Of a stretch of DNA of 37,961 bases, positions 4,220 through 35,989 are shown one piece after another (position 1 is the stretch's first letter; each line of letters begins with the position of its first letter). The notes beneath the pieces are model-generated. The model was not told the origin of the DNA. It searched no databases and saw only the letters and a program-made list of their open reading frames with translations. The position numbers were made by a program, and so were the translations under genes. This DNA is from a virus. The DNA lies in the IMG/VR virus record IMGVR_UViG_3300050821_022438, positions 1 to 37,961 of that record, one strand, 5' to 3'.

Positions 4220-4816
4220 TTAATCCGCGCTACGGATCATGACGTACACGAGACTGAGGCCGAAGGTGTTGGGCTTCGGATTGTTGTTTGGGGGAACCAC
4301 AAATCGCAGCTTGAATCCAGAATCCTCAAGTGAAGCGATAACGCCCGCGCAATCGGGACCGGGTGCCGGCGGGGTGAGACCCGCGCTGACGCTCGAAGCG
4401 AAAAATGAATTGCCCACACCGCTAGGCAGCGAGGGTGCTACACACTCCAAAAGCTCCACATCGTCACCCGAGTCTCTCATTCTGCGCTTTTCCCCCGTCT
4501 GCATAAAATAGCTGATTCCTCCCACGTCCGAAGCTACGAAATCCAAGGTGTAACCCGCCTGCGAAAGTTCTGTAATGGTCTCGGCACACACCGCGCTGGG
4601 GATAAAAAGAGCAGGGTCGCTCGCATGCACGATGGGAGGAATCGGCGGATAAACATTTGGTTCATAACAATCGAAATTTGCAACTTGGTGTGGCCTCCTG
4701 TCATCCGCCAAAACCGGCTTAGTTGCCACCGTGGCGTGAAAACCGAGCATCGCCAACAGTACCAACACGAGCGAAACAGCAACGGCAATAACGAATAGCT
4801 GGGTTTTGTTTTTCAT
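4220..4816 (-). CDS. Exported/anchored protein with internal duplication, minus-strand accessory gene
   Basis: 198 residues. A hydrophobic segment at residues ~7-30 (FVIAVAVSLVLVLLAMLGF) is a signal peptide or anchor. The exported part holds two related copies of a short unit: CAETITELSQAGYTLDFVAS ... YFMQ, then CAGVIASLEDSGFKLRFVVP ... YVMI. This suggests a small alpha/beta domain duplicated in tandem. The start is fixed by a GAGGAG ribosome site about 8 nt upstream on the minus strand. A well-formed promoter (TTGACA-N16-TAGAGT) lies about 80-105 nt further upstream. It is an isolated gene between + strand genes, so a moron-like cassette is likely. I do not recognise the family. Confidence 0.7.
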   Translation of the reverse strand: MKNKTQLFVIAVAVSLVLVLLAMLGFHATVATKPVLADDRRPHQVANFDCYEPNVYPPIPPIVHASDPALFIPSAVCAETITELSQAGYTLDFVASDVGGISYFMQTGEKRRMRDSGDDVELLECVAPSLPSGVGNSFFASSVSAGLTPPAPGPDCAGVIASLEDSGFKLRFVVPPNNNPKPNTFGLSLVYVMIRSAD

Positions 4817-11861: not shown

Positions 11862-12236
11862 ATGCAAGCCCTCGAAGTCCGCCGCGTCACCCATTCCGAA
11901 GACTTACTCAAGCCCGGCGATTATGTTTACGTCCCCAAGCGTCCGCCGATCGTAACGTACGAACGGAAACTGCTTGAAGCCCCGCCAGGATTCTTCGCCA
12001 AGCTTTGGTGGCATTGGTTCGGTCAAAAATACACGATAAAACAGATCGTCGAGCTCCAATGGCCCGAATGCGACGTTGCGGTATTAAACTGCCCTGACTG
12101 CAACTCACCCGTCGCCACCACCGGCAGGCACAAGATCGTTTCTATCGAACCGTTAACGATCGAAACGCCCATCACCTGCCCGTACTCCAAAGACTTCACG
12201 TTCAAGGTCAGCGAAGGAAAAATCATGCCCGCGTAA
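11862..12236 (+). CDS. Zinc-site protein between terminase and portal
   Basis: 124 residues from ATG 11862 (MQALEVRRVTHSEDLLKPGD). ATGs at 11811 and 11817 would add a basic 15-17 residue extension; I prefer 11862 because the region before it is shared with the divergent gene's upstream region. CPDC at about residues 76-79 and a later TCPYSKDF give three cysteines of a possible zinc site within a beta-rich protein. The stop overlaps the portal ATG (TAATGG). A head-related role is possible from position only. Confidence 0.6.
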   Translation: MQALEVRRVTHSEDLLKPGDYVYVPKRPPIVTYERKLLEAPPGFFAKLWWHWFGQKYTIKQIVELQWPECDVAVLNCPDCNSPVATTGRHKIVSIEPLTIETPITCPYSKDFTFKVSEGKIMPA

Positions 12237-14557
12237 TGGCTCCCTCCCTCAACGCAAAAGGCCCGAGCTGGCCCATCAGAGCTTTACGCAAGCTGAATCC
12301 TTTCGCGTCCCGCATCGAACCGGAAATCTATTCCCAAGGACAAAAGATCGAGTTCAACCGCTTCGGAATGGCGCGGGCCGTGACGACCAAGAGCGGCAAG
12401 AGAGTGTTTGGGGAGATCACCGGCGGCAATCAGTTCGCCATCGAGCGGCCGGGCGGGGGAAACCGCATCGATCCCGCCAAAGCGATGGCGAACAACAAAG
12501 GGTTCGTCTATGCCGCGGTGAAAGCGATCGCGCGCGAAGTGATGAACATCGAGTTCAGACTCTTTGAAATCGACGGCAAGAATCACAACGAGCTAAAGGA
12601 GCACGAATTACTCGATCTCTTAGACGGCGTGAACGAGTTCATGACCGGTCCCGAATTGAAATACCTCACGGTCGCTCACATGAATCTCGTCGGCAATGCC
12701 TACTGGCTTCTCTTGGGGGTCAAAAACGAAACGGACAAGCCGAAAGCAATTTATGTTCTCGACCCTTCCAAGGTGCGAGTCATTCTCGATCAGACCACGT
12801 TCCCTTATCAGATCAAGGGTTACCGGATGAAGCTGGAAACGAAGACCTATGACTATCAGCCTTACGAGATTCTTCATTTCCGCAATCCTGACCCGTTAAA
12901 TCCCTACGAAGGCGTCGGCCCCGTCCAGAACATCGCCGAGTGGATCGATCTCGACCATTACGCGATGGAATTCAACCGGAAGTTCTTCGTGAACGGCGCG
13001 CGCGTCGCTGGATTCCTGAAAAGCGATTTCGTGAGCGAAACGCAGGTGGAAACCTTGCGCATCGGTTTTGCGAACATGCACGAAGGGATTGACAACATGA
13101 ACCGCGTGGCTGTCCTGCCCAAAGGCGTGGAGTGGCAATCGGCCGGTTCCACCCCGAAGGATATGGATTTCAAAAATCTTTCCGAGGACGTGCGCGACCG
13201 CATCCTTGCGGCTTTCGGCGTTTCAAAGACCATTCTCGGTACTGCTGAGTCGGACACCAACCGCGCCACATCAGAGACTGCGGATTATGTCTTTGCAAAG
13301 CGAACCATCAAGCCCCTCATGCAACTCTTCTGTAGTTTCCTTAATGAACAGCTCGTCCCTCGCTACGGCGATGATCTGTACGTGAGCTTCATTGACCCCG
13401 TTCCGGAGGATCGCGGCGCACGGACGACGGAAATGCAGACGGCCGTCGGCAGCCAGCCGGTGCTCACGATCAACGAAGCGCGCGAGGAGTTTATGGGGTT
13501 GGGACCGGTCGAAGGCGGTGATGAGCTGATGAAGCCGAGCTCAATGGCCCCGGCCGTAGCGCCCGAGCCGGATGCACCGAAACCGAAGCCCGGCAAAGAA
13601 CCCGATGACAATGAGGATGAAGAAGAGAGCAAGAAAATCAAACTCGCGTTCCGTCCCATGCGCACGAAGTTACAGAAACGCGCGATGGCGCGAAAGCAGA
13701 TCCAGGCGGCCCTCGCCGCGACAATAAGGGAAGCCATCATCGACGCTGAGAAACACCCCACCAAGAAATTCGGCTCGACGAAAGAGAACGATGAATTCGT
13801 ATGGAAGAAATTCAGCGAGCACACCTACAGCGCGGAAAAGGAGATAGCGGATCTCGTCCGCAAGCTGAACAGCGAGCAGAAAAAGCAGGTGATGGAAAAT
13901 CTCCCGAAAGCCATAGAGAAGGGGATCGACCCCACCAAGCTCTTCGACGTGGACAAATGGATCTCGATCATGACCGACGCGCTCACGCCGACCATAGAAT
14001 CTCTCTTTGTGTCGGAAGGAAAAACGGCCGCAGCCGAATTAGGCAAACCCGAATTGAATCCCTTATCCGACGTGACCGCCGCAAAAGCCCTCCATGATTC
14101 CATTTCCATGATGTCCAAGAGCTACACCCAAACGACACTCGCCACGCTCGAAACGAAAATTAACGACGGTCTTTCGCAGGGACAAAGTTTGCAGCAGATT
14201 TCAAAGACGGTTGAGGATGTTTACGAATGGTCTGACACCTACCGGGCTGAGCGCGTTGCCAAGACGGAATCGTTCCGCACCGCGAACATGGGATTGAAAG
14301 AAGCGTGGAAACAATCGGGCGTCGTGAAGACGATCCGCTGGTATACGTCGGAAAAGAGCAATGTCTGTCCCTACTGCGAGGCGATGGACGGCAAAGTCAT
14401 TTCCATAGAGCAGAATTTCTTCAACAACGGCGATTCGCTCACGGTAGGCGAAGGTGATAATGCGAAGACCATGTCCTTCGATTACGGCGACGTGGGCGCG
14501 CCCCCTCTACATCCGCTCTGCGCTTGTTTCGCTCGCCCCGAAGAAATCTCAATCTAA
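12236..14557 (+). CDS. Portal protein fused to MuF/SPP1-gp7-like minor head protein
   Basis: 773 residues, much longer than a usual portal (~400-500). Residues ~80-430 read as an HK97/SPP1-type portal: AMANNKGFVYAAVKAIAREV, FYVLDPSKV-like wing region, PYEILHFRNPDPLNPYEGVG, VSKTILGTAESDTNRATSET. A Pro/Asp/Glu linker follows at ~440-470. The C-terminal ~300 residues are helical and end with CPYC (711-714), MDGK and PPLHPLCAC (~756-764), the signature of the Mu gpF/SPP1 gp7 minor head family. The portal forms the dodecameric DNA channel; MuF proteins are carried in the head. One chain combining both would place a MuF domain on every portal subunit. Confidence 0.88.
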   Translation: MAPSLNAKGPSWPIRALRKLNPFASRIEPEIYSQGQKIEFNRFGMARAVTTKSGKRVFGEITGGNQFAIERPGGGNRIDPAKAMANNKGFVYAAVKAIAREVMNIEFRLFEIDGKNHNELKEHELLDLLDGVNEFMTGPELKYLTVAHMNLVGNAYWLLLGVKNETDKPKAIYVLDPSKVRVILDQTTFPYQIKGYRMKLETKTYDYQPYEILHFRNPDPLNPYEGVGPVQNIAEWIDLDHYAMEFNRKFFVNGARVAGFLKSDFVSETQVETLRIGFANMHEGIDNMNRVAVLPKGVEWQSAGSTPKDMDFKNLSEDVRDRILAAFGVSKTILGTAESDTNRATSETADYVFAKRTIKPLMQLFCSFLNEQLVPRYGDDLYVSFIDPVPEDRGARTTEMQTAVGSQPVLTINEAREEFMGLGPVEGGDELMKPSSMAPAVAPEPDAPKPKPGKEPDDNEDEEESKKIKLAFRPMRTKLQKRAMARKQIQAALAATIREAIIDAEKHPTKKFGSTKENDEFVWKKFSEHTYSAEKEIADLVRKLNSEQKKQVMENLPKAIEKGIDPTKLFDVDKWISIMTDALTPTIESLFVSEGKTAAAELGKPELNPLSDVTAAKALHDSISMMSKSYTQTTLATLETKINDGLSQGQSLQQISKTVEDVYEWSDTYRAERVAKTESFRTANMGLKEAWKQSGVVKTIRWYTSEKSNVCPYCEAMDGKVISIEQNFFNNGDSLTVGEGDNAKTMSFDYGDVGAPPLHPLCACFARPEEISI

Positions 14558-14564
14558 TAAATAA

Positions 14565-15125
14565 ATGCTCGACCCCGTAGCCAATTTAATAAAACTCCAA
14601 CTCAATCAGGGATACGACCAAAATGCCACCTCGATAGTGGTGACTTCCGGTGGTTCTTCACTCCCATCACCTTCCTTCAACGTCGTATGGTGGAACTCGA
14701 CCGATTATCCCGATCCGTCCAACGACCCCAATGTGGAGATTGTCCGCGTCACCGCAGTTTCGAGCAACACGCTCACCGTCACCCGCGCACAGGAAGGAAC
14801 TGCCGCCTCAACGAAAAACACCGCAGGCAAGACCTATCAGCTCATTCTTGGCATCACGGCGAAGATGATCACGGACATACAGAGCGCGATCAATGCCGTG
14901 GTTGTAGGCTATCGCCCGTCCGTTGCCAATTTCACGACCGTCTTGGGCGCGAATAGTTTCACCATCACGCCCCCTTCGGGAAGCGTCACCTCCATCCTCA
15001 TGTGTGCCGTCGGTACGCAGCAATTCGTGCCCGGCGGCGATGTCACGCTCTCCGGCAACGTCGCTTCATTTGCGGTGAACTATCCACAGGCTGGCGTCCC
15101 TGTAGTAATAATTTATACTTATTGA
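14565..15125 (+). CDS. Fibre-like structural protein
   Basis: 186 residues without a signal peptide. The first ~100 residues (TSIVVTSGGSSLP ... EIVRVTAVSSNTLTVTRAQEG) form a beta-rich domain widely found at the start of phage fibre and appendage proteins. The C-terminal ~70 residues (FTVLGANSFTITPPSG) are also beta-rich. Position after the portal suggests a head- or neck-associated fibre. A-rich leader, no Shine-Dalgarno site. Confidence 0.65.
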   Translation: MLDPVANLIKLQLNQGYDQNATSIVVTSGGSSLPSPSFNVVWWNSTDYPDPSNDPNVEIVRVTAVSSNTLTVTRAQEGTAASTKNTAGKTYQLILGITAKMITDIQSAINAVVVGYRPSVANFTTVLGANSFTITPPSGSVTSILMCAVGTQQFVPGGDVTLSGNVASFAVNYPQAGVPVVIIYTY

Positions 15126-15126
15126 A

Positions 15127-17436
15127 ATGGTTAAAAAGATACTTCTGGCAGCGGCGGCGGGAGCCATCATCATCGGCTTTATGGGTGTCATCGCAAACGC
15201 CGCTCCCTATCCACTTCAGGAATACGGCGGCGGCACAGGAACCAATGCGACTTCGACCGCCGGCCAGGTGTTGATCAGTACCGGCTCGTCCACCTACACC
15301 CCCGCCTATCTCGCCTGTAGCGGCGGTTGCACGGTCACGAGCGCCTCGGGAACAGTCACAATCACGGCCGCGAGTTCGAGCGCGCTCATCACCGTCACAA
15401 TCAACGGACAAACCGGCAGCGCGTTCAACGTATTCGGCGACAATGTCAATACCACCTCGACCACGAACGGTTCCACAACCGTCATAAAACTACTCAACTC
15501 GGGCGCAAGCGCGGCAACCTACACCTGCGCCACCGTAACGGTGAACGCGCAAGGTATCGTGACCTCCGCATCGAACGGCTCGTGCAGCGGCGGCGGAGGC
15601 ATCACGTCCATCAACGCCGCAACAAGCAGTGCGCAGACTCTCGTCGCAGGCGCGGGCCTCACGGCCACGACGACCGCGGGATCTTCCAACGCCACGACGA
15701 CCTATACCCTTAACATCGGCACCGGGTGCTCCGGAAACAACTTTGTCCAGACCATATCGGCCACGGGCACGATCACCTGCTCCGTCCCCTCGGGTGGCGC
15801 GAGCTCGACGAACGTCTACGGCGCGAACGGCGTGAACGTGGTGCAGGTAGGGGTGAATGCCACGGCGACCCTTGACACAACCTACGCAGCGATTTGGACT
15901 GCGCTTGAGACATTCAATAAAGGGCTCACCGCGAACGGAACAACGACGCTCGCTTCGACGACGAACGCGATTGCGGTGACCAACGGAAGCGGCACGGTCT
16001 ATGCCTATGCCGGATCGAACGTCTGCGGAGCGGGCAATGCCGCAACGGCAATTTCGGCGACGGGGACGATTACCTGCTCGCCCTTCGTGACGGCCGCCAT
16101 CACTTCCATAAACGGCAACACGACCGCCGCGCAGACTTTTACGGGCGGTGCCGGCATATCGGTCGCGAGCGCGAGCGGGAACACGACCACGACGAATACC
16201 GGCGTGACCTCCTTTACTGGAGCCGGATGCGCGACCGCAGCGAACTCAACGGGCACCGTCACTTTGACCGTGACCTGTATATCGGGCAATCAAAACATCA
16301 CGTTTAAGCTATCGGGCGACGCAACCGGCACGGCGAGCGGCGCGACTTCGATTACCGATACGGTGACGGTGGTCGGATTGAACGGCGTCTCTCTTCCCGC
16401 GAATACGACGGGGACGCTCGAATACGTGAGCGGTGCATGGGTGATCAAACTCGCGACGAGCTCGCTCGGGGTCTACGATGCGAGCGGAAACCTCTCGTCC
16501 TATATCGGCTCGCAATGCGGCGGGGGCCAATACATGACCGGCCTCTCGGCCACAGGAACGGTCGCGTGCGGAACGCCTGCCGGATCGGGGACGCTTTCAA
16601 CGACGACACCGTGGACAGTCGGGAATCTCACTCTCGCGAGCACCTCGAATGCCCTAGCGACTTACGGGGGATCTTCGTGCGGTTCTGGCATCGTGGCGGG
16701 CATATCCGCAAGCGGCACGGCTGCTTGTACGGCAACATCCACACTTCCACAAGGAACCGTGACAACGAGCACGGCGGGCGTTGCGAACGACTACGCGAAG
16801 TGGACTTCAGCTTCGGCGCTCGGCAACGCGAACACGTCCGATATAGGCACGTCAACGTATGTCAATGCCTCGACGACCGAACTCGGCGCGGCAACGACGA
16901 CCGGCCAGCAGCAATTCGAATCTCTCGCATCGACGACCAAGAGCTACGTGGAGTGCGGGCAGAGCGGATTTGCCTGCACCGTTCCCGGATCGCTCGCCTA
17001 TTCCCAGACTTCAACCGGTAACGGCGCGGGCGCGTCCACGACCATCGAGACCTACATCATCCCTTCATCGACTTTACTCACGATCGGGGACGAGTTCGAG
17101 GTGCGCGCGGGAGGCACGATCGCGAACACCGCCTCAACGAACAAAGTCATCCAGCTCAACGTCTCTTCGACCGTCATCTTCCAATCGCCCTCCTCGATAT
17201 TCCCGACGAGCTCAGCTTCCTCATGGTTCCTCGATGCTTATTGCATGGTGCAGTCCACCACCTCATCGCAAACCTGCGCGGGCTACATCGCCGCGGCTTC
17301 CGGCACCTATCCCTTCGACACATCGGTTTCCAGCCTGAACTACGCGACGGGAACAACTCTCACGCTCTACGGCAACGGCACAAACGCCTCGGACACCATC
17401 GCAAACTATTTCCGAGTTCTGTACAACCCATTCTAA
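15127..17436 (+). CDS. Large exported fibre-like protein with cysteine-bounded repeats
   Basis: 769 residues, dominated by Thr, Ser, Gly, Ala and Asn. Residues 1-26 (basic MVKK, hydrophobic AAAAGAIIIGFMGVIA, ANAA) form a clear Sec signal peptide with an AxA site. Four repeats of C-x(2)-G-x(5-7)-[IL]SA[TS]GT-x2-C lie at about C201-C218, C300-C317, C464-C481 and C518-C534, each suited to an internal disulphide. A phrase GDATGTASGATSIT and GTLEYVSGAWVIKL at ~397-441 is typical of phage fibre shafts, and residues ~635-769 form a C-terminal beta-rich head. ANGTTTLASTT (269-279) recalls Patescibacteria surface proteins. Either a virion fibre with a signal peptide or a protein placed on the host surface. 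Confidence 0.7.
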   Translation: MVKKILLAAAAGAIIIGFMGVIANAAPYPLQEYGGGTGTNATSTAGQVLISTGSSTYTPAYLACSGGCTVTSASGTVTITAASSSALITVTINGQTGSAFNVFGDNVNTTSTTNGSTTVIKLLNSGASAATYTCATVTVNAQGIVTSASNGSCSGGGGITSINAATSSAQTLVAGAGLTATTTAGSSNATTTYTLNIGTGCSGNNFVQTISATGTITCSVPSGGASSTNVYGANGVNVVQVGVNATATLDTTYAAIWTALETFNKGLTANGTTTLASTTNAIAVTNGSGTVYAYAGSNVCGAGNAATAISATGTITCSPFVTAAITSINGNTTAAQTFTGGAGISVASASGNTTTTNTGVTSFTGAGCATAANSTGTVTLTVTCISGNQNITFKLSGDATGTASGATSITDTVTVVGLNGVSLPANTTGTLEYVSGAWVIKLATSSLGVYDASGNLSSYIGSQCGGGQYMTGLSATGTVACGTPAGSGTLSTTTPWTVGNLTLASTSNALATYGGSSCGSGIVAGISASGTAACTATSTLPQGTVTTSTAGVANDYAKWTSASALGNANTSDIGTSTYVNASTTELGAATTTGQQQFESLASTTKSYVECGQSGFACTVPGSLAYSQTSTGNGAGASTTIETYIIPSSTLLTIGDEFEVRAGGTIANTASTNKVIQLNVSSTVIFQSPSSIFPTSSASSWFLDAYCMVQSTTSSQTCAGYIAAASGTYPFDTSVSSLNYATGTTLTLYGNGTNASDTIANYFRVLYNPF

Positions 17437-17456
17437 AGGTCAACAAAACAAATCTT

Positions 17457-17888
17457 ATGAATCCATTACAACCATTTCCAAAACCCGCGCAATCCGTAGA
17501 TTCCGTCCAATCGGTACAGAGTGTTCAAGCCCAGACAGTGCAGTACGCTTCCGTCGTCTCGCTTCTTGGCACGCAGGGAACGTATCCCGCAGGGACACTC
17601 TTCAACGACAACGGTGACGGCACGTGCAGCCCGGTGGCAGGTCAGGCGGACAAGTTCGGCGTTGATGTCAATTTCTTCGTAATTTACAACGCCGCGAGCC
17701 CCCTTCCGTTGCCTGGCGCGACATTCTACTCGCTGGACGGCCAGGGCAATGTCATCCAGGTGGCGAACGACGGCACGAGCGAGCCTAAGGCGCTCATCGC
17801 CGCCGGTCTCTTCTGGTTCGACCAGGCATCCGCCCAGGCAGCTCTTACGGCCCTCCTCGCCACACCGAAATCACAAGCATCCAGCTAA
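17457..17888 (+). CDS. Hypothetical structural protein
   Basis: 143 residues from ATG 17457; longer upstream starts would lie inside the previous gene. The N-terminus has a short SVxSVQ repeat (SVDSVQSVQSVQ). The rest is a beta-rich domain (GTYPAGTLFNDNGDGTCSPV, FFVIYNAASPLPLPG) ending in an Ala-rich helix (ASAQAALTALLATP). The leader carries GGTCAACA, a variant of the GGTCGAAA element. Its TAA overlaps the next ATG (TAATGA). Probably part of the appendage cluster. Confidence 0.6.
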   Translation: MNPLQPFPKPAQSVDSVQSVQSVQAQTVQYASVVSLLGTQGTYPAGTLFNDNGDGTCSPVAGQADKFGVDVNFFVIYNAASPLPLPGATFYSLDGQGNVIQVANDGTSEPKALIAAGLFWFDQASAQAALTALLATPKSQASS

Positions 17889-18736
17889 TGAAAAAATACG
17901 GTCATCTCGATAAAATTATCTTGGGAATCGTAGTGGGTTTTTGGGGTTTATTCGTCGCATATCCGCCTATACAAGCCCATGCCGCTATTGTGCTTGTAAG
18001 TACGACGACCATCGCCGAGCAGTCAGGTTCCCAAACGACCGTCAGCTCCAGTTTGTCGAACATCTCCATAAACAATCTTGTGGTCTGCGGATTCCGTGCG
18101 GGATCAAGCGGCAATTTTCCGACGAAAGCAGCTGACACAGGAAGCAGCACATGGGCGGTCGTGGCGACCGATACGACGACAGGGAGCAACGCAATCGCGG
18201 AGTGGTACGCGGTAGTATCCTCGACGACGACCCCTATCGTCATAACGGCAACGTGGAGCGGTGCGGTATCGAACCGCGACATAGAATGCGCCCAGTATTC
18301 AGGAACGGCCACGACGAACGTCTTGGATGTGCACAGCGGAAATACGAGCGGAGGGAGCACGGGAACGCAAGCGACCTCAACCGCCGTAACGACGACGGGT
18401 TCCGATGTTCTTGTGGTCGTAGGTTCCTTCAACGCGGCGAAAGTGGCGACGGCTAATCCGAACTATACGATGGAGGATACGCTCTCGACCGCAGATTCTT
18501 GGTTGCAAGACAGGATTTCCAACAGTATTTTAACGAGCGAGGTAGCTTCTTCGAGTTGGTCGGGAGGTACGAACACCTGGAATGAATTGATGGGAGCGTT
18601 TAAAGCGGCCTCAAGCAACGTGAGCGCCTCGAACGCCACGTCGCAGACGATGACTTCGCTCGGGGCAGGCATAATCCAGGTCGCCGCAAATTCCACCCTG
18701 CAAGTCGCGCAGGGATCGAATCTCTTCGTTCTCTAA
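17888..18736 (+). CDS. Exported Ser/Thr-rich protein
   Basis: 282 residues. A signal peptide spans residues ~1-33 (KIILGIVVGFWGLFVA, then IQAHAA). The mature part is beta-rich (NLVVCGFRAGSSGNF, ITATWSGAVSNRDIECAQYSG, SDVLVVVGSFN) and looks like a secreted carbohydrate-binding or lectin-like fold found in surface proteins. The ~45 C-terminal residues (SSNVSASNATSQ ... LQVAQGSNLFVL) are low-complexity. Overlaps the previous gene by one base pair set, so co-translated with the fibre cluster. Confidence 0.65.
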   Translation: MKKYGHLDKIILGIVVGFWGLFVAYPPIQAHAAIVLVSTTTIAEQSGSQTTVSSSLSNISINNLVVCGFRAGSSGNFPTKAADTGSSTWAVVATDTTTGSNAIAEWYAVVSSTTTPIVITATWSGAVSNRDIECAQYSGTATTNVLDVHSGNTSGGSTGTQATSTAVTTTGSDVLVVVGSFNAAKVATANPNYTMEDTLSTADSWLQDRISNSILTSEVASSSWSGGTNTWNELMGAFKAASSNVSASNATSQTMTSLGAGIIQVAANSTLQVAQGSNLFVL

Positions 18737-18737
18737 A

Positions 18738-18908
18738 ATGTACGGTTTCTCCGGATACGCGACTAATCCTTACGCGACAAAACGCTACACGAGCGCGGGC
18801 GCTCCTCCCGGCCCGATCGTCCAGCTCGCGATGACCTTCTGGCAAAACACCTACGGCATCGCGAATATGTGGTGGCTTCGATTCAAAAATACAACGCTTG
18901 AACTATGA
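18738..18908 (+). CDS. 56-residue small protein in the fibre cluster
   Basis: ATG at 18738 directly after the previous TAA; product begins MYGFSGYATNPYATKRYTS and ends FKNTTLEL. It is aromatic-rich with a middle helix (IVQLAMTFWQNTYGIANMWW). The TGA overlaps the ATG of the next gene (ATGA), which supports it as a real coupled gene. Unknown function; small proteins of this type often accompany appendage genes. Confidence 0.6.
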   Translation: MYGFSGYATNPYATKRYTSAGAPPGPIVQLAMTFWQNTYGIANMWWLRFKNTTLEL

Positions 18909-19243
18909 TCCCCTCCCCTATAAAAGTCGTGCAGAACGACTACGGCTATCAAATCCCTTTCACGCTTGAAGACGGCAACGGCAATCCCGTTTCGCTGAGC
19001 GGGGCAACGCTCGTCCTCAAGGTGCAATCCGCGCAAGACCCTTCAGACACTCTCGTTTTTCAGAACGGCATGACGATTGACAACGCCTCCGCGGGAACGT
19101 GCCACTATACGGTTGGTTCGAGCGATTTCCCCACGCCGGGCACGCTTCTCGTATCGATCGTCGCCACATACTCGACCGAGGTCCTGAGTTGGTCGGGGGC
19201 CCAGATCATTGTCATTCCCGCGCTGCCCCAATCCATGAACTAG
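18905..19243 (+). CDS. BppU-N-like Ig-fold appendage protein
   Basis: 112 residues with the pattern of the baseplate upper protein (BppU) N-terminal domain: IKVVQNDYGYQIPFTLEDGNG, PVSLSGATLVLKVQ, TIDNASAGTCHYTV and a final strand. In lactococcal phages this domain links receptor-binding proteins to the baseplate. Here it is a free-standing Ig-like protein in a cluster of fibre proteins, so it may anchor one of them to the virion. ATGA overlap with the previous gene. Confidence 0.65.
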   Translation: MIPSPIKVVQNDYGYQIPFTLEDGNGNPVSLSGATLVLKVQSAQDPSDTLVFQNGMTIDNASAGTCHYTVGSSDFPTPGTLLVSIVATYSTEVLSWSGAQIIVIPALPQSMN

Positions 19244-19244
19244 G

Positions 19245-19280
19245 TTATCCACAAGATCTCAAAAATCCGTTTGCTACAGT
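19245..19280 (+). promoter_or_regulatory. Late-type promoter motif, copy A (before 19287)
   Basis: TTATCCACA (19245-19253), 18 nt, then TGC-TACAGT (TGC 19272-19274, -10 at 19275-19280). An A5 tract lies in the spacer. The start codon begins 7 nt after the -10, so transcription may begin at or next to the ATG (leaderless). Copies B and C share the CACA-N18-TGCTANAGT spacing exactly. Confidence 0.6.
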
Positions 19281-19286
19281 TAAAGC

Positions 19287-19847
19287 ATGAATAAAAATTA
19301 TCTCATTGTGGCGGGTGCGGTCGTCGTAGCGTTGGTCGCAGCGGTCGTCGTATTCCATTCCTCGCCGCAACTTGCGGGGGATTTTGCGGGCGGCATCCAG
19401 CCGGGCCCGCTCTTCACGTGCAATGTCAGCACGAATAGCTGCACGCCGAACCTTTCGAATCTCTACGTGAACGGCGCGACGAGCGTAGGCGGAACCATCC
19501 CGAACAACCAGATAACGGTGCTCTACACTGCAACGACATCCTATCCGGCAGTCGCCCTTACCCTTGGGAGCATTTCCGCGACCACATCGACGACCAGCAC
19601 GAACATCGGCATTCCCGTAGCGGGATTCAGCGTCGGCGACCCTTGCAGCGCCATCTCATACAACGGCGCTTCCTCTTCAGCACTCATCAGCTACGATGGC
19701 AACATCACCGCGGCCGGCACGAACAACGCCACCGCGACGATACTCTTCATGAACGTCGGTACGTCGACCACAACGTTCACCGTCACGAGCACGGCGACCG
19801 GAGTAAGCAGCACGCTCAAAGCCACTTGCATCCACACGGGCGTATAA
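19287..19847 (+). CDS. Membrane-anchored exported protein, paralogue 1
   Basis: 186 residues. A single hydrophobic anchor covers residues ~5-23 (LIVAGAVVVALVAAVVVF), followed by the motif PQLAGDFAGGI shared with the 19865 gene. The exported part is Thr/Ser-rich and beta-like, with four or more cysteines (FTCNVSTNSC, GDPCSAIS, KATCIHTG). It is the first gene after late-type promoter copy A and has no Shine-Dalgarno site. Topology suggests an N-in, C-out envelope protein or a virion protein with a hydrophobic N-terminus. Confidence 0.65.
   Translation: MNKNYLIVAGAVVVALVAAVVVFHSSPQLAGDFAGGIQPGPLFTCNVSTNSCTPNLSNLYVNGATSVGGTIPNNQITVLYTATTSYPAVALTLGSISATTSTTSTNIGIPVAGFSVGDPCSAISYNGASSSALISYDGNITAAGTNNATATILFMNVGTSTTTFTVTSTATGVSSTLKATCIHTGV
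19377..19396 (+). repeat. 20-bp exact direct repeat, copy 1
   Basis: GGGGATTTTGCGGGCGGCAT, encoding the GDFAGGI region; the second copy is at 19955-19974 in the next gene. It marks the two genes as tandem duplicates. Confidence 0.85.
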
Positions 19848-19864
19848 AACGAAATACCTGAGCC

Positions 19865-20467
19865 ATGAACAAACTCGACACACTCCTTGCTGCAGCGGTC
19901 GGTGCGATCGTCGTGGCCGCCGTTCTCTTGGTCGTACTTCATCCGCAACTCGGCGGGGATTTTGCGGGCGGCATTGCACCGAATAATCTCTGGACCGCAA
20001 ACACGCTCTCCGCAAGCGTCTCTCCGGTCTCCGGAACGCCGAACATAATCACTTCCGGCAACGGCATTTTCAACGATGTTATCCAGGCGGACGCGGGATT
20101 CTCGCAGGTCGTGAATGCCTCGACCACCCTTACGCCGGGACAATTTTGCGGTACGACTTCGGTACACATCACGAACACGACCGCGGCGATCACGCTAACG
20201 CTCCCCGCCGCGACGACCACGTATGTCGCGTGTGGCTCGCCCGCACCCGGCGCTTACTCACAAGAGCTCCTCGTGAATGACTCCACGAACACCGTCACCG
20301 TCGCCGCGGGCACGGGCATGACGCTCATGAACCAGACGCAAGGCCCCGGCACCACAACCATTGCTGGCGTGATCAACACGATCCCTGCAACCTCAACCGA
20401 GCTCGTCACAGGGATCTGGGCCAGTTCGAGCAGCTTCTATGTCATGAACGGTGACATCTTCCACTAA
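19865..20467 (+). CDS. Membrane-anchored exported protein, paralogue 2
   Basis: 200 residues. Same plan as the preceding gene: anchor at ~8-26 (LLAAAVGAIVVAAVLLVVL), then PQLGGDFAGGI, followed by an unrelated-looking beta-rich exterior (ITSGNGIFNDVIQADAGF ... ITLTLPAATTTYVAC). The exterior reads like a phage fibre tip domain (NTVTVAAGTGMTLMNQ, TSTELVTGIWASSSSFYVM). Conserved anchor with divergent exteriors suggests the anchor is the shared function and the outside domain has been swapped. Confidence 0.65.
   Translation: MNKLDTLLAAAVGAIVVAAVLLVVLHPQLGGDFAGGIAPNNLWTANTLSASVSPVSGTPNIITSGNGIFNDVIQADAGFSQVVNASTTLTPGQFCGTTSVHITNTTAAITLTLPAATTTYVACGSPAPGAYSQELLVNDSTNTVTVAAGTGMTLMNQTQGPGTTTIAGVINTIPATSTELVTGIWASSSSFYVMNGDIFH
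19955..19974 (+). repeat. 20-bp exact direct repeat, copy 2
   Basis: Second copy of the repeat at 19377-19396, in the equivalent position just after the anchor-coding region. Confidence 0.85.
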
Positions 20468-20500
20468 TCTTGGTCGCCGCTTTTTACAAGCACAAGGATT

Positions 20501-20653
20501 ATGGAAACACTCTATAAAACTGAACTCGGTACGTGGGAGGTATCTCGTTGGGAGAACGGCCAAATTTCCTTTACCGCTGAAGATGGCCACACGTACACGA
20601 AATTCAGCGACGGTTCCATAGCTCATATGTTCTGCCACTGCTTCCACCAATAA
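20501..20653 (+). CDS. 50-residue small protein
   Basis: ATG 20501 to TAA 20653, product METLYKTELGTWEVSRWENG ... MFCHCFHQ. Short beta pattern and a terminal FCHCFH that could bind metal. AAGGA lies just before the start. It fills the space between the anchored paralogue and the protease gene. Unknown function. Confidence 0.5.
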   Translation: METLYKTELGTWEVSRWENGQISFTAEDGHTYTKFSDGSIAHMFCHCFHQ

Positions 20654-20660
20654 CCTCCCC

Positions 20661-22097
20661 ATGATCGACACCCTCAAAAAATTCTCTGCCGATCTCCTCG
20701 CCGATTTCAAAACATCCCAGGAAAAGCAGAAGACCGACGCCATACTTTCGAAAATAAAAGCCGCTGATACCGGGACATTTTCAGTCGTCATTTCAACCTC
20801 CGACGAAGACCGCCAGGGCGACTCGCTCGACCAGTCCAAATGGAAACTCGACAACTACGAGGCCAATCCCGTCGTGTTGTGGGCCCACGATTATTACGCT
20901 CCGCCGATTGGCGTCTGCACTGGCATCTCGGTCAAAGACGGCAAGCTCGTCGCCGAGGGCAAATTTGCATCAGAAGACCTCAATCCCTTCGCTGCGCAGA
21001 TCGCCGCGATGTATGAAGCAGGTTTCATCAAAGCCACCTCCGTAGGCTACGTCCAGCACGAAGACGGCCAGCTCGAACTTTTGGAATTCAGTTTCTGCCC
21101 CGTCCCCGCCAACCCGTACGCCCTTTCCTTGCGCGAGATGAAAAAGCTCCGCCTCGATATGCCCCAGCTTGTGATGAAAGGGCTTCGGTTCGAGACCAAA
21201 GCGGAACAGGCGGGCGACCGCTGCGAGCAGGACGACGGCACGTTGGGAATCCTGGCCGAAGATCCGCAGAATCCCGGCCAGCTCGTCTGTGTCCCCGCCA
21301 AATCCGACAAATCGAATGAGAATGACGGCGATATGAACAACGAACTCATGAAAAGCTTAAAAGCAGAACACTCCCGCCACGGCGAGGCGGTGATGAAAGC
21401 GATTGACGAATTCAAAGGCATTGACGAATTCAAGTCCGCGCTCGGAAGCGAGAACGACTCCCATCTCGAAAAGTGCATGAAAGCCATTGACGACTCGTAC
21501 GAAACGATGGGGCGCACGCCGAACAAAACCATCGACGAATTCAAAGCGGCGTTTCACGCCGAGCATGAAAAGCATGTTAAGTGCTTCGGGAAGGCCATCC
21601 AGGAATTCAAGACCATTGACGAATTTGAAAAAACCGCGTCCGAAGAACTGCCGCGCCATGAAAAAGCCCATATGGACTTGTGTGAAAAAGAAATGCGCGA
21701 AGGCGAGGACGAAGAAGAGAAGACCATCAAAGAGATTGTCGCCAAAGTGGGACGACAGATTTCCTCGAAGAACAAGGAAAAGATTCTGGCCGCCGTTAAG
21801 TCTCTCGAAGACGGCCATGCGGAGCACGGAAAAGCAATTCAAAATGTAATCGCGGCCCTGAAGGAACTTGTTTCCCAGGGTGACGAGGGGGAGGAAAAAC
21901 CGAAAACGGTTTCCCCGAACACAAGGTCGAGGCCTGCAGGAGCGGCAATCAACAAGGACGCGAAGGAAGGACAAATGTCCGACTTCGAAGTGTTCATGTT
22001 CACCCGTAGTCTCCTGAAGGAGGTCGCATCTGTGACATCCGACAGCCTCGCCCGGCTCAAAACTGAGTTTCGCGTGAAGTTTCCGGACCGCAGATAG
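20661..22097 (+). CDS. Prohead protease fused to scaffold-like domain
   Basis: 478 residues. Residues ~35-160 match the HK97-type prohead serine protease: NPVVLWAHDYYAPPIG with H76, KATSVGYV with S127, and ELLEFSFCPVPANPYA. Residues ~225-400 are charged helix with a recurring HxxxxxKAIDEFK-type unit (four or so copies of IDEFK), typical of an internal scaffold. The C-terminus (SDFEVFMFTRSLLKEV...) may contact the capsid protein. The scaffold part guides capsid assembly and is removed by the protease during maturation. It lies directly upstream of the capsid gene. Confidence 0.9.
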   Translation: MIDTLKKFSADLLADFKTSQEKQKTDAILSKIKAADTGTFSVVISTSDEDRQGDSLDQSKWKLDNYEANPVVLWAHDYYAPPIGVCTGISVKDGKLVAEGKFASEDLNPFAAQIAAMYEAGFIKATSVGYVQHEDGQLELLEFSFCPVPANPYALSLREMKKLRLDMPQLVMKGLRFETKAEQAGDRCEQDDGTLGILAEDPQNPGQLVCVPAKSDKSNENDGDMNNELMKSLKAEHSRHGEAVMKAIDEFKGIDEFKSALGSENDSHLEKCMKAIDDSYETMGRTPNKTIDEFKAAFHAEHEKHVKCFGKAIQEFKTIDEFEKTASEELPRHEKAHMDLCEKEMREGEDEEEKTIKEIVAKVGRQISSKNKEKILAAVKSLEDGHAEHGKAIQNVIAALKELVSQGDEGEEKPKTVSPNTRSRPAGAAINKDAKEGQMSDFEVFMFTRSLLKEVASVTSDSLARLKTEFRVKFPDRR

Positions 22098-22119: not shown

Positions 22120-23385
22120 ATGGATCAAAAAACTATCGACACGATAGTTAAATCAGTTAGCGACTCGAACATAAAGACGCTCAACGACTTCATGGAGAAA
22201 GACCTTCTCCCGAAGGTTGACGAGCACTCGGCGAAGACCGCAAAGCAGATCGTCGACCGGATGTTGGCGGAACGGTACGTCCGTGGCCGCGACATCACGG
22301 GCCTCGACGACGAAGCCAAGAAGTCTTTCGCCAAGCAGGTGCAGGCCGTCTTCCGCGGCAACCGCGCAGGCGCGTTGCTCGTGAAAGAATTCGATGGCCT
22401 CAGCACAAAGGCCAACGAAGCGCTCATCGAAGAGCAGGACAACCGTGGCGGATACTTGGTTGAACCCGAGGTCGCCTCGGCCATCCTCCGCATCGCGGCT
22501 TCCGTCGGGACGATCATGCGGCAGTGCCAGCAATGGCCCATGCGCACCGATGAACTCGGCATCCCGAACTACACGGGCTCGTTCCTTACGGGCTCCTATG
22601 TCGGCGTCGACCTTCCCGGCACCGTGACCGGTTTGACCTTTGGTCAGGCCGTCCTCATCGCGCGCAAGTGGCAGCTCGCCTTCACCGTTGGCAACGACCT
22701 TTTGGCCGATGCCTCGGTTCAGTTGGCGGATTGGCTCTTGGCGATGGCCGGTGAAGCATTGGCGAACATGATCGACCAGCAAGGATTCATCGGCGGGACG
22801 GTAACCACCGCTCCGGGTCCTTTCGTCGGCATCATGAATCTGACGGGCGTGAACACGTACATCCTCGGCAATTCGAGCACCTCGGGTTCCACCACGTACG
22901 CAAAGTTCAACCCCGTGACGGACACCGCGAACATTGTCGCCACACTCGAAGAATCGATCTTGGACGGCGCTGCATTCTATATGCACCGCACCGTCTGGGC
23001 TTCGGTTCGCTCAGCGTTGGCGTCAACGTCCGGTTTGCCGTTCCTGTTCCTTTCCGGAGCAGATAGCGAGCTCGCACACGATGCGCTCGGCGGCCCCATC
23101 AAGCCGGCCGGTTCCATGGGCGGCTTCCCGGTTTTCACAAACCGGTGGCTCCCTGCGACGACCGCTTCATCGCAGACGAACACCCCGTTCGCCATCTTCG
23201 GGAACATGAAAGCAGCCGCCTTTGGCGACAAGGGCGACATGCGGGTTGCGCAGTTCGATTCCGGCAGCTTCGGCGGCAAAGAGATCGCTCTCGCCGACCA
23301 GCACGGCATCGTCTACCGCCACCGCCACGCCTTCGTGGTCGTGCTTCCGAAAGCGTTCACCGTCGTGTACACCTCGTCTTCCTAG
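22120..23385 (+). CDS. Major capsid protein, HK97 fold
   Basis: 421 residues. An N-terminal helical delta-like segment (~1-105) ends near NEALIEEQDNRGGYLVEPEV, the typical junction. The HK97 core follows: SAILRIAASVGTIMRQCQQW, GIPNYTG, LIARKWQLAFTVGNDLLADA, GEALANMIDQQGFIGG, and the C-terminal VAQFDSGSFGGKEIALADQHGIVYRHRHAFVVV. It is the shell subunit, cleaved at the delta domain by the protease upstream. A 12-bp hairpin follows the gene, possibly stabilising this abundant message. Confidence 0.93.
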   Translation: MDQKTIDTIVKSVSDSNIKTLNDFMEKDLLPKVDEHSAKTAKQIVDRMLAERYVRGRDITGLDDEAKKSFAKQVQAVFRGNRAGALLVKEFDGLSTKANEALIEEQDNRGGYLVEPEVASAILRIAASVGTIMRQCQQWPMRTDELGIPNYTGSFLTGSYVGVDLPGTVTGLTFGQAVLIARKWQLAFTVGNDLLADASVQLADWLLAMAGEALANMIDQQGFIGGTVTTAPGPFVGIMNLTGVNTYILGNSSTSGSTTYAKFNPVTDTANIVATLEESILDGAAFYMHRTVWASVRSALASTSGLPFLFLSGADSELAHDALGGPIKPAGSMGGFPVFTNRWLPATTASSQTNTPFAIFGNMKAAAFGDKGDMRVAQFDSGSFGGKEIALADQHGIVYRHRHAFVVVLPKAFTVVYTSSS

Positions 23386-31527: not shown

Positions 31528-32118
31528 ATGCGAAGAAAAATTAAAGAAAAAGGAGGCATACAAGGCACCGTCATTGTCCGCTCCCATCCGGCCGGCACTA
31601 TTAAGCGCTATCACGAGCTCAAGAAAACCGACCTTCCCGCCGCTCAGAGGCTACTCAAAGAAGGCAGGGTTTACGTCGTCCAGAAAAACATGATCGTCTG
31701 GTCGGCGAGCTGCGGCTACGACATCCTTGTCCAATTTCTTCTCTCGGCCTATACCGGTAGTTTCGCCTTCCCCCTGGGGATAAGCTGGGGAGAGATCGGC
31801 ACGGGGCTCACTGCGCCCGCGAACACGGATCTTGCACTCACCACTCCCACCGCGCGGGCGACCGTGAGCTACGCGGCCGACAGCGCTTTCAGCATTGCCC
31901 AGCTACAGTTTTTCTTCCCCGACGTTACGCTCCCCAACCAGACCTATACAGAGTTCGGGACATTTATCGGGGGTACGTCATCCATCGGCACGGGCAATAT
32001 GTTCAACCACGCGCTTTTTATCAATCCCTACTCAAAATCATCAGGAACGGACACTACGGTCGAGGTGGACTTCGCCTTCGGCGCGGACAGCGGGTTCGAC
32101 GATTCGGGTTTCTCATAA
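31528..32118 (+). CDS. Tail/fibre-associated structural protein
   Basis: 196 residues. The first ~60 residues are basic and helical (MRRKIKEKGGIQGTVIVRSH, HELKKTDLPAAQRLLKEGR). The C-terminal ~130 are beta-rich (WGEIGTGLTAPANTDLALTT ... TYTEFGTFIGGTSSIGTG), resembling small phage appendage proteins that carry fibres. First gene behind promoter copy C, so it probably heads the receptor-binding unit. Confidence 0.65.
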   Translation: MRRKIKEKGGIQGTVIVRSHPAGTIKRYHELKKTDLPAAQRLLKEGRVYVVQKNMIVWSASCGYDILVQFLLSAYTGSFAFPLGISWGEIGTGLTAPANTDLALTTPTARATVSYAADSAFSIAQLQFFFPDVTLPNQTYTEFGTFIGGTSSIGTGNMFNHALFINPYSKSSGTDTTVEVDFAFGADSGFDDSGFS

Positions 32119-32130
32119 ATAAAATCAACA

Positions 32131-34533
32131 ATGAAAAAATTATCTCTCTTCCTTCTCGCATTCCTCTTTTTCTTCGGCGCGAAATCTCTCTCCGCTTCCG
32201 CCGCCTGCACGCCGATTTCTTCCACGTATCCAGGTTCCCTCGATACCTTCGTCGCAAACGACTGCATCCCTTCCTCATGGGCAAACCAGCTTGAACAGAA
32301 ACTCGGCATCACGAGCTCCTCCGTCACTTCCTCGCTCGACTATCAGATCAACAATCTCTTCACTTCCTACGGAAGCGAGATCGTGAAAGCCACCTCCACC
32401 ACAGGACTTTTGCAGACGCTCAACAATCTTTCTGACCTTACCAATCTCGTCTCTGCGCGAGCCAACCTCGGCCTCGGCTCAGCGGCCACGCACCCTTTCA
32501 GCGATTTCTTGCCATCCAGCACCCCCTATTCCACCGTTTCTACCTCATCCGCCAATTCTTGGACCCAGCTCCAAACTTTAAATAATGGATTGACGGTCAA
32601 CGGCACAACGACGCTTGCTTCGACCACGAGCGCGCTCGTCGAAGCGACCTCAACAGGGCAGGTCATTCCTTATCCCGGGAGCACGTGCAGCGCGGGGACT
32701 GCCTATACAGGTCTTTCCGCGACCGGCACGCCTGTCTGCACGGCCTTCGGCTCTTCCAATGTCTCTACTTCGAGCGCGAATACATGGTCGCAGGTGCAAA
32801 GCACAAACGGAGTGTCGAACACCGGAAACGCGACCTCGACGAGTATCGAGGTTACGGGGACTTCGACGGCATCCTTCGTCGCGAATGCCAATATGCGCTT
32901 TCAAGTTCCCCCGCAGGCGACGCTGACCGCGTTTGGATTCACCGACGTGACGCAATATATGGCGAACATCTACGCCGCCTATAACGGCGTCGTAAGTTCT
33001 ACTGAGTTCGATTTCGGCGCGGGTAACTGGCCGGACGTGACTACGACGACATTCAATTTCTTGGGCGATCGCGTTTACATTACGGGAGTTCCCGGAGGCG
33101 GATCTCGTATTACTTACACGCCGACAAGCACGGGCGCGATATGGACGATCAACAACGGTTCAGGATCAACGGGTGGACAGCACACCTCGGCGCAAGGCGT
33201 GAATGCTATGTATTTCCAATGTTCGGACGGTTCGAGCACTGCGCTTCTTGTTGGCGGCACTCTCGGCGCGGAAGGTACGAGCATCACGAACAACACATTC
33301 AATCACTGCCCCGTCCCGATCGAGAGTGCCGGGAACACGTGGGAGCTTACGATCGACCATAACTTCTTCAGCAGTTATGCCACCGGGACCGTGTTCGATT
33401 CTTCGAACAACTCGGGCGAAATGCCGCGCGTTACGAACAACGACTATCACGACAACACGAACTCTACGACCACGAACGGTTTTGTGATGCAGACGGCTTC
33501 CACGATCGGCGCTACCGTCTGCTGGAATAGCTTTGACGACACGGGGGTAAATTACGGCGCAGGCAACGTCGGCATCAAGTCCTGCAACTACTTTGAGAAT
33601 CCGGGGTGGGCAACATACGGCTCTTATCCATTCCTCAAGATCGGTGCGAACTCGACCGTCGTGAGCCAAGATACGTTCGGCAACGATGCCTCGACCACGG
33701 GAAACTTCCCGCCCGAGGACATTTCCAACGCGGGTACTTTGATTGATGCGGGCATAACAACCGTTGCGAACGGCACGGCGACAACGACTCCGGCCCTTAT
33801 CGTGGACACGGGTGCTGGCACTACTGCAGGCATCGGCGTCATCAACGTTCCGAACAGTTCTGGCGGCAACGCAGTTTCCTCAACGATAGGATCTTCTGTA
33901 TTCAATGCGCTCACCTTCTGGATCGAACCAGCCTATGGCACGAGCACTCCAGATCTGGCTCTGGGGACTCAGGGAACCGTAAATTCCTCTACGTTTATGA
34001 CTTTCGACGGCAACCGTGTTCAAATCGGCTATGACCCCTCGACGATTGATGGGACCACTGGACAGCTAGCCCTCTTCGGTGGCGGCTCAAAAGGTATCGA
34101 AATCTGTGTTAACGGCACTGCAAATCTAGTATGTGGACAAAATGCTATCTACATCAGCGGGACTGCAAACACAGGTGTCGGCGTCGCTGCGGTAGGAATT
34201 AATACCCAAAACCCTTCCTCAACGCTCGATGTCAATGGTTCATTTGGAGAAAAAGTCACAACGAGTGCCGTGTCGTCCACGATGACCGCTCTCGCTTCCA
34301 CTTGGATTTATACGGGGACCACTGCTGGCACATTTACGCTTACGAATTGCACTTCAACTCCTAACCGGCAGTACCTGACGTTCGATGATTCCTCTTCGAC
34401 CCTCACCATTGCGGCAACGAGCACGAATTTCATATGGCCCAATGTCGGTGGAGCGACTTCAACCTCGGTTTCGGTCACTACTTCCACTCCTTCTTTCTTC
34501 GTTTGTGACGGTACAAACTGGCACCAGAAATAA
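32131..34533 (+). CDS. Exported fibre/receptor-binding-like protein with beta-helix
   Basis: 800 residues. Residues 1-25 (MKK, then LFLLAFLFFFGAKSLSASAA) form a clear Sec signal peptide. Residues ~100-250 are shaft-like, with NGLTVNGTTTLASTT and one C186-C203 ISA/LSATGT module identical in plan to those in the 15127 protein. Residues ~265-545 contain NNTFNHC, IDHNFFSS, NNDYHD and WNSFDD turns, a right-handed parallel beta-helix pattern common in polysaccharide-binding or -cutting tailspikes. VGINTQNPSSTLDVNG (688-703) is a common fibre motif near the tip. Likely host recognition; why a virion protein should have a signal peptide is unexplained. Confidence 0.75.
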   Translation: MKKLSLFLLAFLFFFGAKSLSASAACTPISSTYPGSLDTFVANDCIPSSWANQLEQKLGITSSSVTSSLDYQINNLFTSYGSEIVKATSTTGLLQTLNNLSDLTNLVSARANLGLGSAATHPFSDFLPSSTPYSTVSTSSANSWTQLQTLNNGLTVNGTTTLASTTSALVEATSTGQVIPYPGSTCSAGTAYTGLSATGTPVCTAFGSSNVSTSSANTWSQVQSTNGVSNTGNATSTSIEVTGTSTASFVANANMRFQVPPQATLTAFGFTDVTQYMANIYAAYNGVVSSTEFDFGAGNWPDVTTTTFNFLGDRVYITGVPGGGSRITYTPTSTGAIWTINNGSGSTGGQHTSAQGVNAMYFQCSDGSSTALLVGGTLGAEGTSITNNTFNHCPVPIESAGNTWELTIDHNFFSSYATGTVFDSSNNSGEMPRVTNNDYHDNTNSTTTNGFVMQTASTIGATVCWNSFDDTGVNYGAGNVGIKSCNYFENPGWATYGSYPFLKIGANSTVVSQDTFGNDASTTGNFPPEDISNAGTLIDAGITTVANGTATTTPALIVDTGAGTTAGIGVINVPNSSGGNAVSSTIGSSVFNALTFWIEPAYGTSTPDLALGTQGTVNSSTFMTFDGNRVQIGYDPSTIDGTTGQLALFGGGSKGIEICVNGTANLVCGQNAIYISGTANTGVGVAAVGINTQNPSSTLDVNGSFGEKVTTSAVSSTMTALASTWIYTGTTAGTFTLTNCTSTPNRQYLTFDDSSSTLTIAATSTNFIWPNVGGATSTSVSVTTSTPSFFVCDGTNWHQK

Positions 34534-34546
34534 CCCCCTCAAACCA

Positions 34547-35989
34547 GTGAAAGCCATCCGCCTTCCATCCGGAGCAACGTACTACGCGCAAGAACATAAC
34601 GCGCTCCGTTCCGACGCCGTGGCCTCGTCCTGGCTTCACGTCCATCAGCAGCTCGGGGCTTTGGCTCTTGGCACCACGCCGACGAACGGCCAGACGGTCA
34701 CGCTCGACATCAACGGCACGAACGTACAGTTCCAGGCCGTCACCGGCTCGCCAACAAATCCGGGAGACGTAAAAGCGCCGGGAACCGCGGCCGGGTTCGT
34801 CGCCAATCTCTTTGCCGCGCTCCAGAATCCGACCGCAGCCACCTCGACCTACGTTCCAATCTCTTCCGCGAACGCCGTTCTCATCCAATATCTTGGTTTT
34901 GGTTTGGCGACGGGCGCCACGACCATTACGCCGTTCTCTCTCAACACTTCGACGTACTCTCCGCTCTCGTCCTTCAGCGCGAGCACGACCGTCACAAGCG
35001 GAACGTGGACGGCACAGACGATGGAACTCTACGTCCAACCCGGAACGTATTACGTCGGCACCACCCGCGTTCTCTTTCTCGGCGGGAGCACGCCGACCTT
35101 CACGGCACCGTCATCCCATCCTCGCATAGACCTCGTGACCGCGGATTCGAGCGGGACTATCGCGCTTGTCACGGGGACGGAAAGCGTCTCGCCTTCAGCG
35201 CCTTCCTATCCTGCCAATAAAATGGTTCTCGCGGAGATCTACAACGTCGTGGGAGAAACCGCTCTCTACGACAACGATAATCAGCAATCAGGCCAGGGAT
35301 ATGTTTTGAATGACGTGAGGCCGTTCTTCCCGGGCGGATATATAAGCTCGACCTCGCAGGTCGCATCCGGACTTTTCATTTTGGACCCCGGCAGCGAAGT
35401 GCAGGGCAATATCCTTTATTGGAACGGCGCGGCGTGGGTGCTTTTGGCACCGGGAACTGCCGGCTACGTTCTCGCAACCAACGGCGCGAGCGCCAATCCC
35501 TCTTGGGCGCTCAGCTCCACGACCGCGCAGATAAAAGACACTTCCGGCTCGAACATCACTCCGAACGCCGACAATGCGTATCACACGATAGCTACCTATA
35601 CGAGCATCCCTGCGATAGCCACAAACCAAACCATCTGGCTCAGGGGGCGCGTAACGAACGCCGACAGCCACAACAAAATCAATTCGTCCATCCGCATCAC
35701 GATGAACGGCACGACGATATTCACCGTCACAGGAGGGACGGGCGGCTCCCCATTCGATATTTATTTCGACATGATCGTAACCGTCCCGACCCCTGCGAGC
35801 GTGCAGATCTCTTCAGGTTCCGGATTCAATACGACCGATCTCGCGCTTCAAGGCATCGCCCAGACGACCGCCGCCAATCTCTCCTCTGCTTTCTCCCTGA
35901 CGATAGACGGGCTGGTAAATGTGACCGGCTCGCCGGCCATGAACGGCCCCTGGACCGTGGACCACTTCCTTATGACGATCCTCAACTAA
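34547..35989 (+). CDS. Tail fibre protein
   Basis: 480 residues from GTG 34547 (KAIRLPSGATYYAQEHNALR); an upstream ATG at 34385 would run inside the previous gene. The opening is typical of phage fibre proteins that place a base on the tail. Residues ~45-150 contain TNGQTVTLDINGTNVQFQAV. Later parts have LDPGSEVQGNILYWNGAAWV and GYVLATNGASANPSWAL, standard fibre repeats, and a jelly-roll-like C-terminus (TIWLRGRVTNADSHNK ... VDHFLMTILN). No signal peptide, unlike the neighbour. Confidence 0.8.
   Translation: MKAIRLPSGATYYAQEHNALRSDAVASSWLHVHQQLGALALGTTPTNGQTVTLDINGTNVQFQAVTGSPTNPGDVKAPGTAAGFVANLFAALQNPTAATSTYVPISSANAVLIQYLGFGLATGATTITPFSLNTSTYSPLSSFSASTTVTSGTWTAQTMELYVQPGTYYVGTTRVLFLGGSTPTFTAPSSHPRIDLVTADSSGTIALVTGTESVSPSAPSYPANKMVLAEIYNVVGETALYDNDNQQSGQGYVLNDVRPFFPGGYISSTSQVASGLFILDPGSEVQGNILYWNGAAWVLLAPGTAGYVLATNGASANPSWALSSTTAQIKDTSGSNITPNADNAYHTIATYTSIPAIATNQTIWLRGRVTNADSHNKINSSIRITMNGTTIFTVTGGTGGSPFDIYFDMIVTVPTPASVQISSGSGFNTTDLALQGIAQTTAANLSSAFSLTIDGLVNVTGSPAMNGPWTVDHFLMTILN

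Follow-up and report, generated by a model that had tools for sequence, protein, structure and literature searches.

A candidate exchangeable host-adhesion cassette with a split, putatively exported fibre between the portal and prohead protease genes of metagenomic phages

In ordinary phages the attachment domain and the shaft of a fibre are part of one chain, and the virions of tailed phages are assumed to be assembled in the cytoplasm. The described proteins that come nearest to the locus analysed here are the tail fibres of the GP4/BcepIL02 type, which appear to share their attachment N-domain with one of its proteins, c4, as judged from a structural model (Foldseek E 2.7e-4 to 8jov_1) and from phrog_8469. 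In BcepIL02 this domain forms a single polypeptide with the remainder of a 292–339-aa fibre that lacks an AxA signal (an anchor was flagged by our rule in 1/4 fibres of this type), whereas here it is encoded by a separate gene. Attachment-domain tail fibres are single polypeptides, cytoplasmic and devoid of a signal; in contrast, the shaft c3 is encoded apart from c4 and carries a predicted signal peptide. A precedent for export is Llp of phage T5, a receptor-blocking lipoprotein that is directed to the envelope; the proteins described here would resemble it as exported phage proteins, but they are long fibres, they are located among late genes, and no lipobox Cys is present by eye at the predicted cleavage site of the window's c3 or of its second exported protein, c6. 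BppU (PF10651), to which a small Ig protein of the locus was likened, is a baseplate upper protein, while the Ig gene lies in the head region. In phiCbK, gp76 is described as the candidate head filament, encoded by a large, adhesin-like gene within the head part of the structural module and not detected in virions (PMC3556154); the passages on gp76 mention no signal peptide, and its likeness to c3, also a large adhesin-type gene near head genes, is one of description and location. A keyword search of titles, the beginnings of abstracts and phrase matches, with subscription papers and preprints outside its scope, returned no report of exported tail fibres, and we regard their novelty as provisional.

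The window is the whole stretch of DNA that was analysed, a 37,961-bp IMG/VR virus record. The initial annotation had described nine genes that separate portal from protease at 14565–20653, two with signal peptides and two with N-terminal anchors. All nine ORFs were found on one strand, and a rule-based scan recovered the signal peptides on the genes starting at 15127 and 17888 as well as the anchors on those starting at 19287 and 19865. The scan used a home-made rule (K/R start, hydrophobic core, AxA) other than SignalP, and the counts of signal peptides and TM segments that are given below for c3, c4, c6, the Ig protein, the tail-end proteins and the controls include near-duplicates. The genes of the slot and its borders are:

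12236..14557, +, portal fused to a MuF-like minor head domain, left border (PF04860, 8.5e-60; PF04233, 1.4e-14; phrog_2662, 5.8e-117)
14565..15125, +, c4, fibre stub of 186 aa, no signal peptide, attachment-like N-domain (phrog_8469, 2.3e-9)
15127..17436, +, c3, predicted signal-peptide fibre of 769 aa, 18 Cys in 9 close pairs (rule-based signal peptide/TM call, Cys parity and spacing)
17457..17888, +, 143-aa gene, no signal (ORF only)
17888..18736, +, c6, putative second exported protein of 282 aa with a signal peptide (in 4/4 family members)
18738..18908, +, small conserved gene, 56 aa (tblastn matches in 23 loci)
18905..19243, +, c1, Ig/BppU_N-like protein, 112 aa, no signal (matches in 34 loci)
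19287..19847, +, c2, predicted N-terminal membrane anchor and beta-rich domain, even Cys (signal peptide or TM in 19/20)
19865..20467, +, c2-like anchored paralogue with a GDFAGGI.P motif (TM by rule; 25% identity in alignment)
20501..20653, +, 50-aa ORF (ORF only)
20661..22097, +, prohead-protease-like gene, right border (phrog_80, 1.1e-12; phrog_3244, 4e-10)
22120..23385, +, major capsid protein (phrog_10, 1.2e-23)

The tight start/stop overlaps that had been noted for the block are present at 17888/17888 and 18905/18908, while the remaining junctions are gaps of 1–43 nt. No terminator-like site was found on the + strand within 14565–20653, and promoter-like sites occur in the block at chance frequency. 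GC content is 0.60–0.62 at 15001–17000 versus ~0.53–0.56 over most of the window.

The large fibre c3 had no Pfam or PHROG match, and its relatives range from 464 to 1684 aa. According to the rule, an N-terminal signal peptide or TM segment is present in 28/28 members of the family (21 with an AxA site and 7 with TM only), and Sec-like N-termini with AxA sites are conserved among divergent fibres, following the pattern of a K-rich start, a hydrophobic stretch, AxA and GGTGT. The same rule flagged 1/62 portals, 0/89 capsids, 0/82 proteases and 0/29 TerL proteins. The Cys content supports export independently of the scan: mature c3 proteins contain 2 to 30 Cys, and the number is even in 26 of 27; the only exception is L046, in which one of the counted Cys belongs to the protein's own signal. 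Even counts also predominate in c2 (19/19), in the second exported proteins (10/11) and in the exported fibres of the tail end (3/3), and the distant signal fibres of L062, L068, L077 and L083 have 10, 12, 12 and 16 Cys, respectively (L083 read from an inner start), compared with even counts in 20/58 portals, 39/68 proteases, 41/67 homologues of the gene at 24255, 26/46 of that at 29958 and 16/27 TerL controls. Since capsid proteins are even as well (32/35), via a fixed two-cysteine pattern, parity alone is not proof, and it is the spacing and the number of Cys that carry the case. Within a pair the median distance is 17 residues, with 179/183 neighbour pairs at ≤40 residues; between pairs the median is 99.5, and only 7/156 distances are ≤40. 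The non-exported fibres of other phages that contain a GGTG motif have 0–1 Cys (L150, L154 and L160), as does the non-exported adhesin that occupies the same slot in L184. Thus, c3 combines the signal peptide and the paired, even cysteines predicted for a Sec-exported disulfide-bonded protein. Together, the signal and the local pairing indicate that c3 is most likely exported, which we consider well supported at the level of sequence, and that it would fold in the oxidising periplasm. In a different phage type (L150, 2397–3227), the GGTGT shaft motif is joined to an N-terminal domain that is not exported and lacks cysteines.

The gene upstream of c3 encodes the stub c4, for which a signal peptide was predicted in 0/25 members by the rule, with at most one Cys in 24. 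phrog_8469 was matched by 13/20 members. The best PDB match of the AF2 model, whose pLDDT is only 70.5, was 8jov_1 from the portal-tail complex of phage GP4 (Z 10.6, with 106 residues superposed at rmsd 3.4), suggesting that the N-domain resembles the virion-attachment domain of tail fibres. The C-domain resembles neck proteins at Z 6–7, which may be due to chance. In all 23 measured pairs c4 and c3 are separate ORFs, and in 11 of these the stop of c4 and the start of c3 overlap by 4 nt. Since c3-type fibres occur without c4 in L012, in L053 and at 32131 of the window, c4 is not strictly required; in L067 it adjoins non-exported proteins.

The genes at 17457 and 20501 yielded 0 tblastn matches in the loci and are unsupported as conserved genes, since no relative was found. 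The second exported protein of L054 matches Laminin_G_3 (4.4e-20). A BppU-like Ig protein had been proposed for the gene at 18905, and this was borne out only as a weak profile match, with both BppU_N (8.6e-4, 19.5 bits versus a cut-off of 23.1) and Invasin_D3 (1.7e-4, 22.5 versus 33) scoring below the Pfam cut-offs; a signal peptide was predicted by the rule in 0/27 members of this family. The AF2 model of c2 consists of a helix at residues 3–23 and strands at 78–183, and the fold had no PDB match (best E 0.45). PDB-sequence profile searches returned weak matches. Relatives of the 112-aa Ig protein are also located in the head region of the unrelated phages L191, L192 and L193, and in L191 and L193 they directly precede a gene that by eye resembles a head-tail connector.

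Searches of viral contigs returned 80 loci with the capsid query and 5 with the portal query. The slot recurs in the order c4 (~186 aa), c3, an optional second exported protein, the small gene, the Ig protein, c2 and protease. A signal-peptide fibre is present in 24 of the 54 relatives in which both borders could be read (23 plus the reassigned L083), a count that includes near-duplicates such as L033/L034. The first classing of these loci, for which the gap caller chose wrong-frame ORFs in some cases (e.g. L007), put 23 in the group with a signal fibre (≥400 aa), 26 in that whose slot has no protein of ≥300 aa and 5 in neither; L083 was treated as 'other' here and in the tree, and an inner start with a signal places it in the exported-fibre group. 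On the capsid tree, which had 50 rows after the removal of four duplicates, 8 changes of the exported-fibre label are required. A clade of 28 rows with support of 100/100 contains 21 rows with the fibre, 6 without and 1 other, and the local nature of the changes is illustrated by the fibre-less L005 and L018, whose sisters are L036 and L041, respectively. In L184 and L064 the slot is taken by non-exported proteins. The patchy presence within this clade argues for an exchangeable accessory cassette rather than a fixed neck component. The suggestion that the block is an inserted appendage module or a set of host-surface proteins is thus upheld insofar as the slot is empty in deeper relatives (10–41 bp) and the proteins appear to be directed to the envelope; the block is not peculiar to this phage, since a group of metagenomic phages shares the ordered gene set, and we rejected a unique insertion because many relatives carry the same set. 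Searches of isolated phages with c3, the fibre at 32131 and the Ig protein gave no match.

The tail end of the window contains a second set of adhesin-like genes:

31528..32118, +, fibre-related gene before the second exported fibre (phrog_4176, 3.2e-5; no signal peptide in 37/37)
32131..34533, +, second predicted signal-peptide fibre, 800 aa (signal by rule, start MKKLSLFLLAFLFFFGAKSLSASA; even Cys)
34508..35989, +, conserved adhesin-like protein without signal (matches in 29 loci; signal peptide in 0/30; the longest ORF begins at 34385 and the conserved start lies further in)

By the rule, a signal peptide or TM segment is present in 3/4 members of the 32131 family. The window has putative exported fibres both in the block and at the tail end. 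L012 and L053, which have no block fibre, carry an exported fibre at the tail end between the homologues of 31528 and 34385, and that of L012 (902 aa) matches the block fibres of L010 (622 aa, 42%) and L044 (641 aa, 39%). Neither exported fibre is present in L038 and L056, which instead have a pair of proteins without signal at the tail end, called lectin-like from visual inspection and from their resemblance to the L184 protein, not from Pfam. This distribution points to a single adhesion function of block and tail-end proteins, for which they would be interchangeable fillers. The tail module ends with a conserved protein of 312 aa (36436–37374), whose L038 version resembles, by eye, a papain-type cysteine peptidase.

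We propose, with a probability of roughly 0.7, that the block serves as an exchangeable cassette for host adhesion and that its fibre is divided into two parts, the distal one being exported and disulfide-bonded. The cassette probably helps host recognition, an adhesion function suggested by the sequences of its members. The fibre would be encoded by two genes, c4 and c3, with the signal peptide located at the split. c4 would be incorporated into the virion in the cytoplasm, while c3, along with c6, would wait in the periplasm, perhaps close to the anchored c2. At lysis c3 would either dock on the c4 stub of the virion, for which we see slightly less than an even chance, or act free as a secreted adhesin, depolymerase or receptor blocker, a serious prospect although also below even odds. 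The broader idea that tailed phages complete their particles outside the cytoplasm, by joining a virion-bound stub at lysis to a Sec-exported, disulfide-bonded distal fibre folded in the periplasm, is speculative and in our estimate rather unlikely. Exported disulfide-bonded fibres among head genes would be unusual for a tailed virus; if the proposal is correct, part of the particle would be added after export, or adhesins would be released as separate agents. Oxidised fibres could fit acidic soils.

The strongest competitor is that the exported proteins are never part of the virion, but are made late and either held in the periplasm until released by lysis or displayed on the cell surface, where their role would be to mask receptors, break down surface polymers or keep other phages out. 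We give this substantial weight, short of an even chance: the export signals and the disulfide pattern are consistent with it, as are the occurrence of c3 without c4 and the lectin-like nature of some partners (the L054 protein). However, c3 lies directly behind a stub with a predicted virion-attachment fold, often overlapping it, and the non-exported proteins that fill the slot in L184 and L064 fit a virion role.

Appendages built wholly in the cytoplasm, in the manner of phiCbK-like head or neck fibres and with the hydrophobic N-termini serving as structural plugs, would account for the position among head genes and for the fold of c4, and the phiCbK candidate gp76 is likewise described as near head genes. 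We nevertheless consider this improbable, because the AxA sites and Sec-like N-termini are conserved across divergent fibres and because the Cys pairing is missing from non-exported fibres. It is less probable still that the proteins are fixed, ordinary head-neck components of the phage group, the circumstance that the initial annotation had set against its own reading. The gene order is indeed conserved in many relatives, yet the six fibre-less rows of the 28-row clade keep portal, protease and capsid, and the label changes repeatedly on the tree; for the fibre, close relatives that share portal and capsid and lack it refute this explanation. c2 could be a core part, since it is retained in the slot in L012, L018 and L030, in which the fibre is absent.

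As for the hosts, scanning genomes with the capsid alignment gave 11 loci, including 7 titled as Patescibacteria lineages and 1 as 'Acidobacterium sp.'. The capsids of the relatives in Patescibacteria MAGs are ~50–56% identical to that of the window. In 6/7 of the Patescibacteria loci (L089–L094) the gap between portal and protease is 10–41 bp, while L096 has a 1.4-kb insert without a signal at this position. L087 is a block-bearing phage in an Acidobacteriota MAG, on a contig of 232 kb with ~62% GC outside the phage. Its phage region begins at a tRNA-Met with an integrase-like ORF alongside, and 20 bp of the tRNA end are repeated at 168104; thus, L087 represents a prophage of ~52 kb. The capsid profile matched 2/396 Acidobacteriota genomes (the one strong match being L087's own) and 5/379 Patescibacteria genomes. 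No chromosomal relatives were found of c6 (99 Acidobacteriota genomes) or of c3 (99 Acidobacteriota and 96 Patescibacteria genomes); the c3 search also missed G001, a known carrier of a c3 relative, and these negative results are therefore uninformative. We infer that the window is a virus of bacteria, as regards its own host. The capsid relatives span two bacterial phyla, with Patescibacteria MAGs on the one hand and the Acidobacteriota prophage L087 on the other. Elsewhere in the window, an ORF on the − strand (4220–4816) has an N-terminal membrane anchor.
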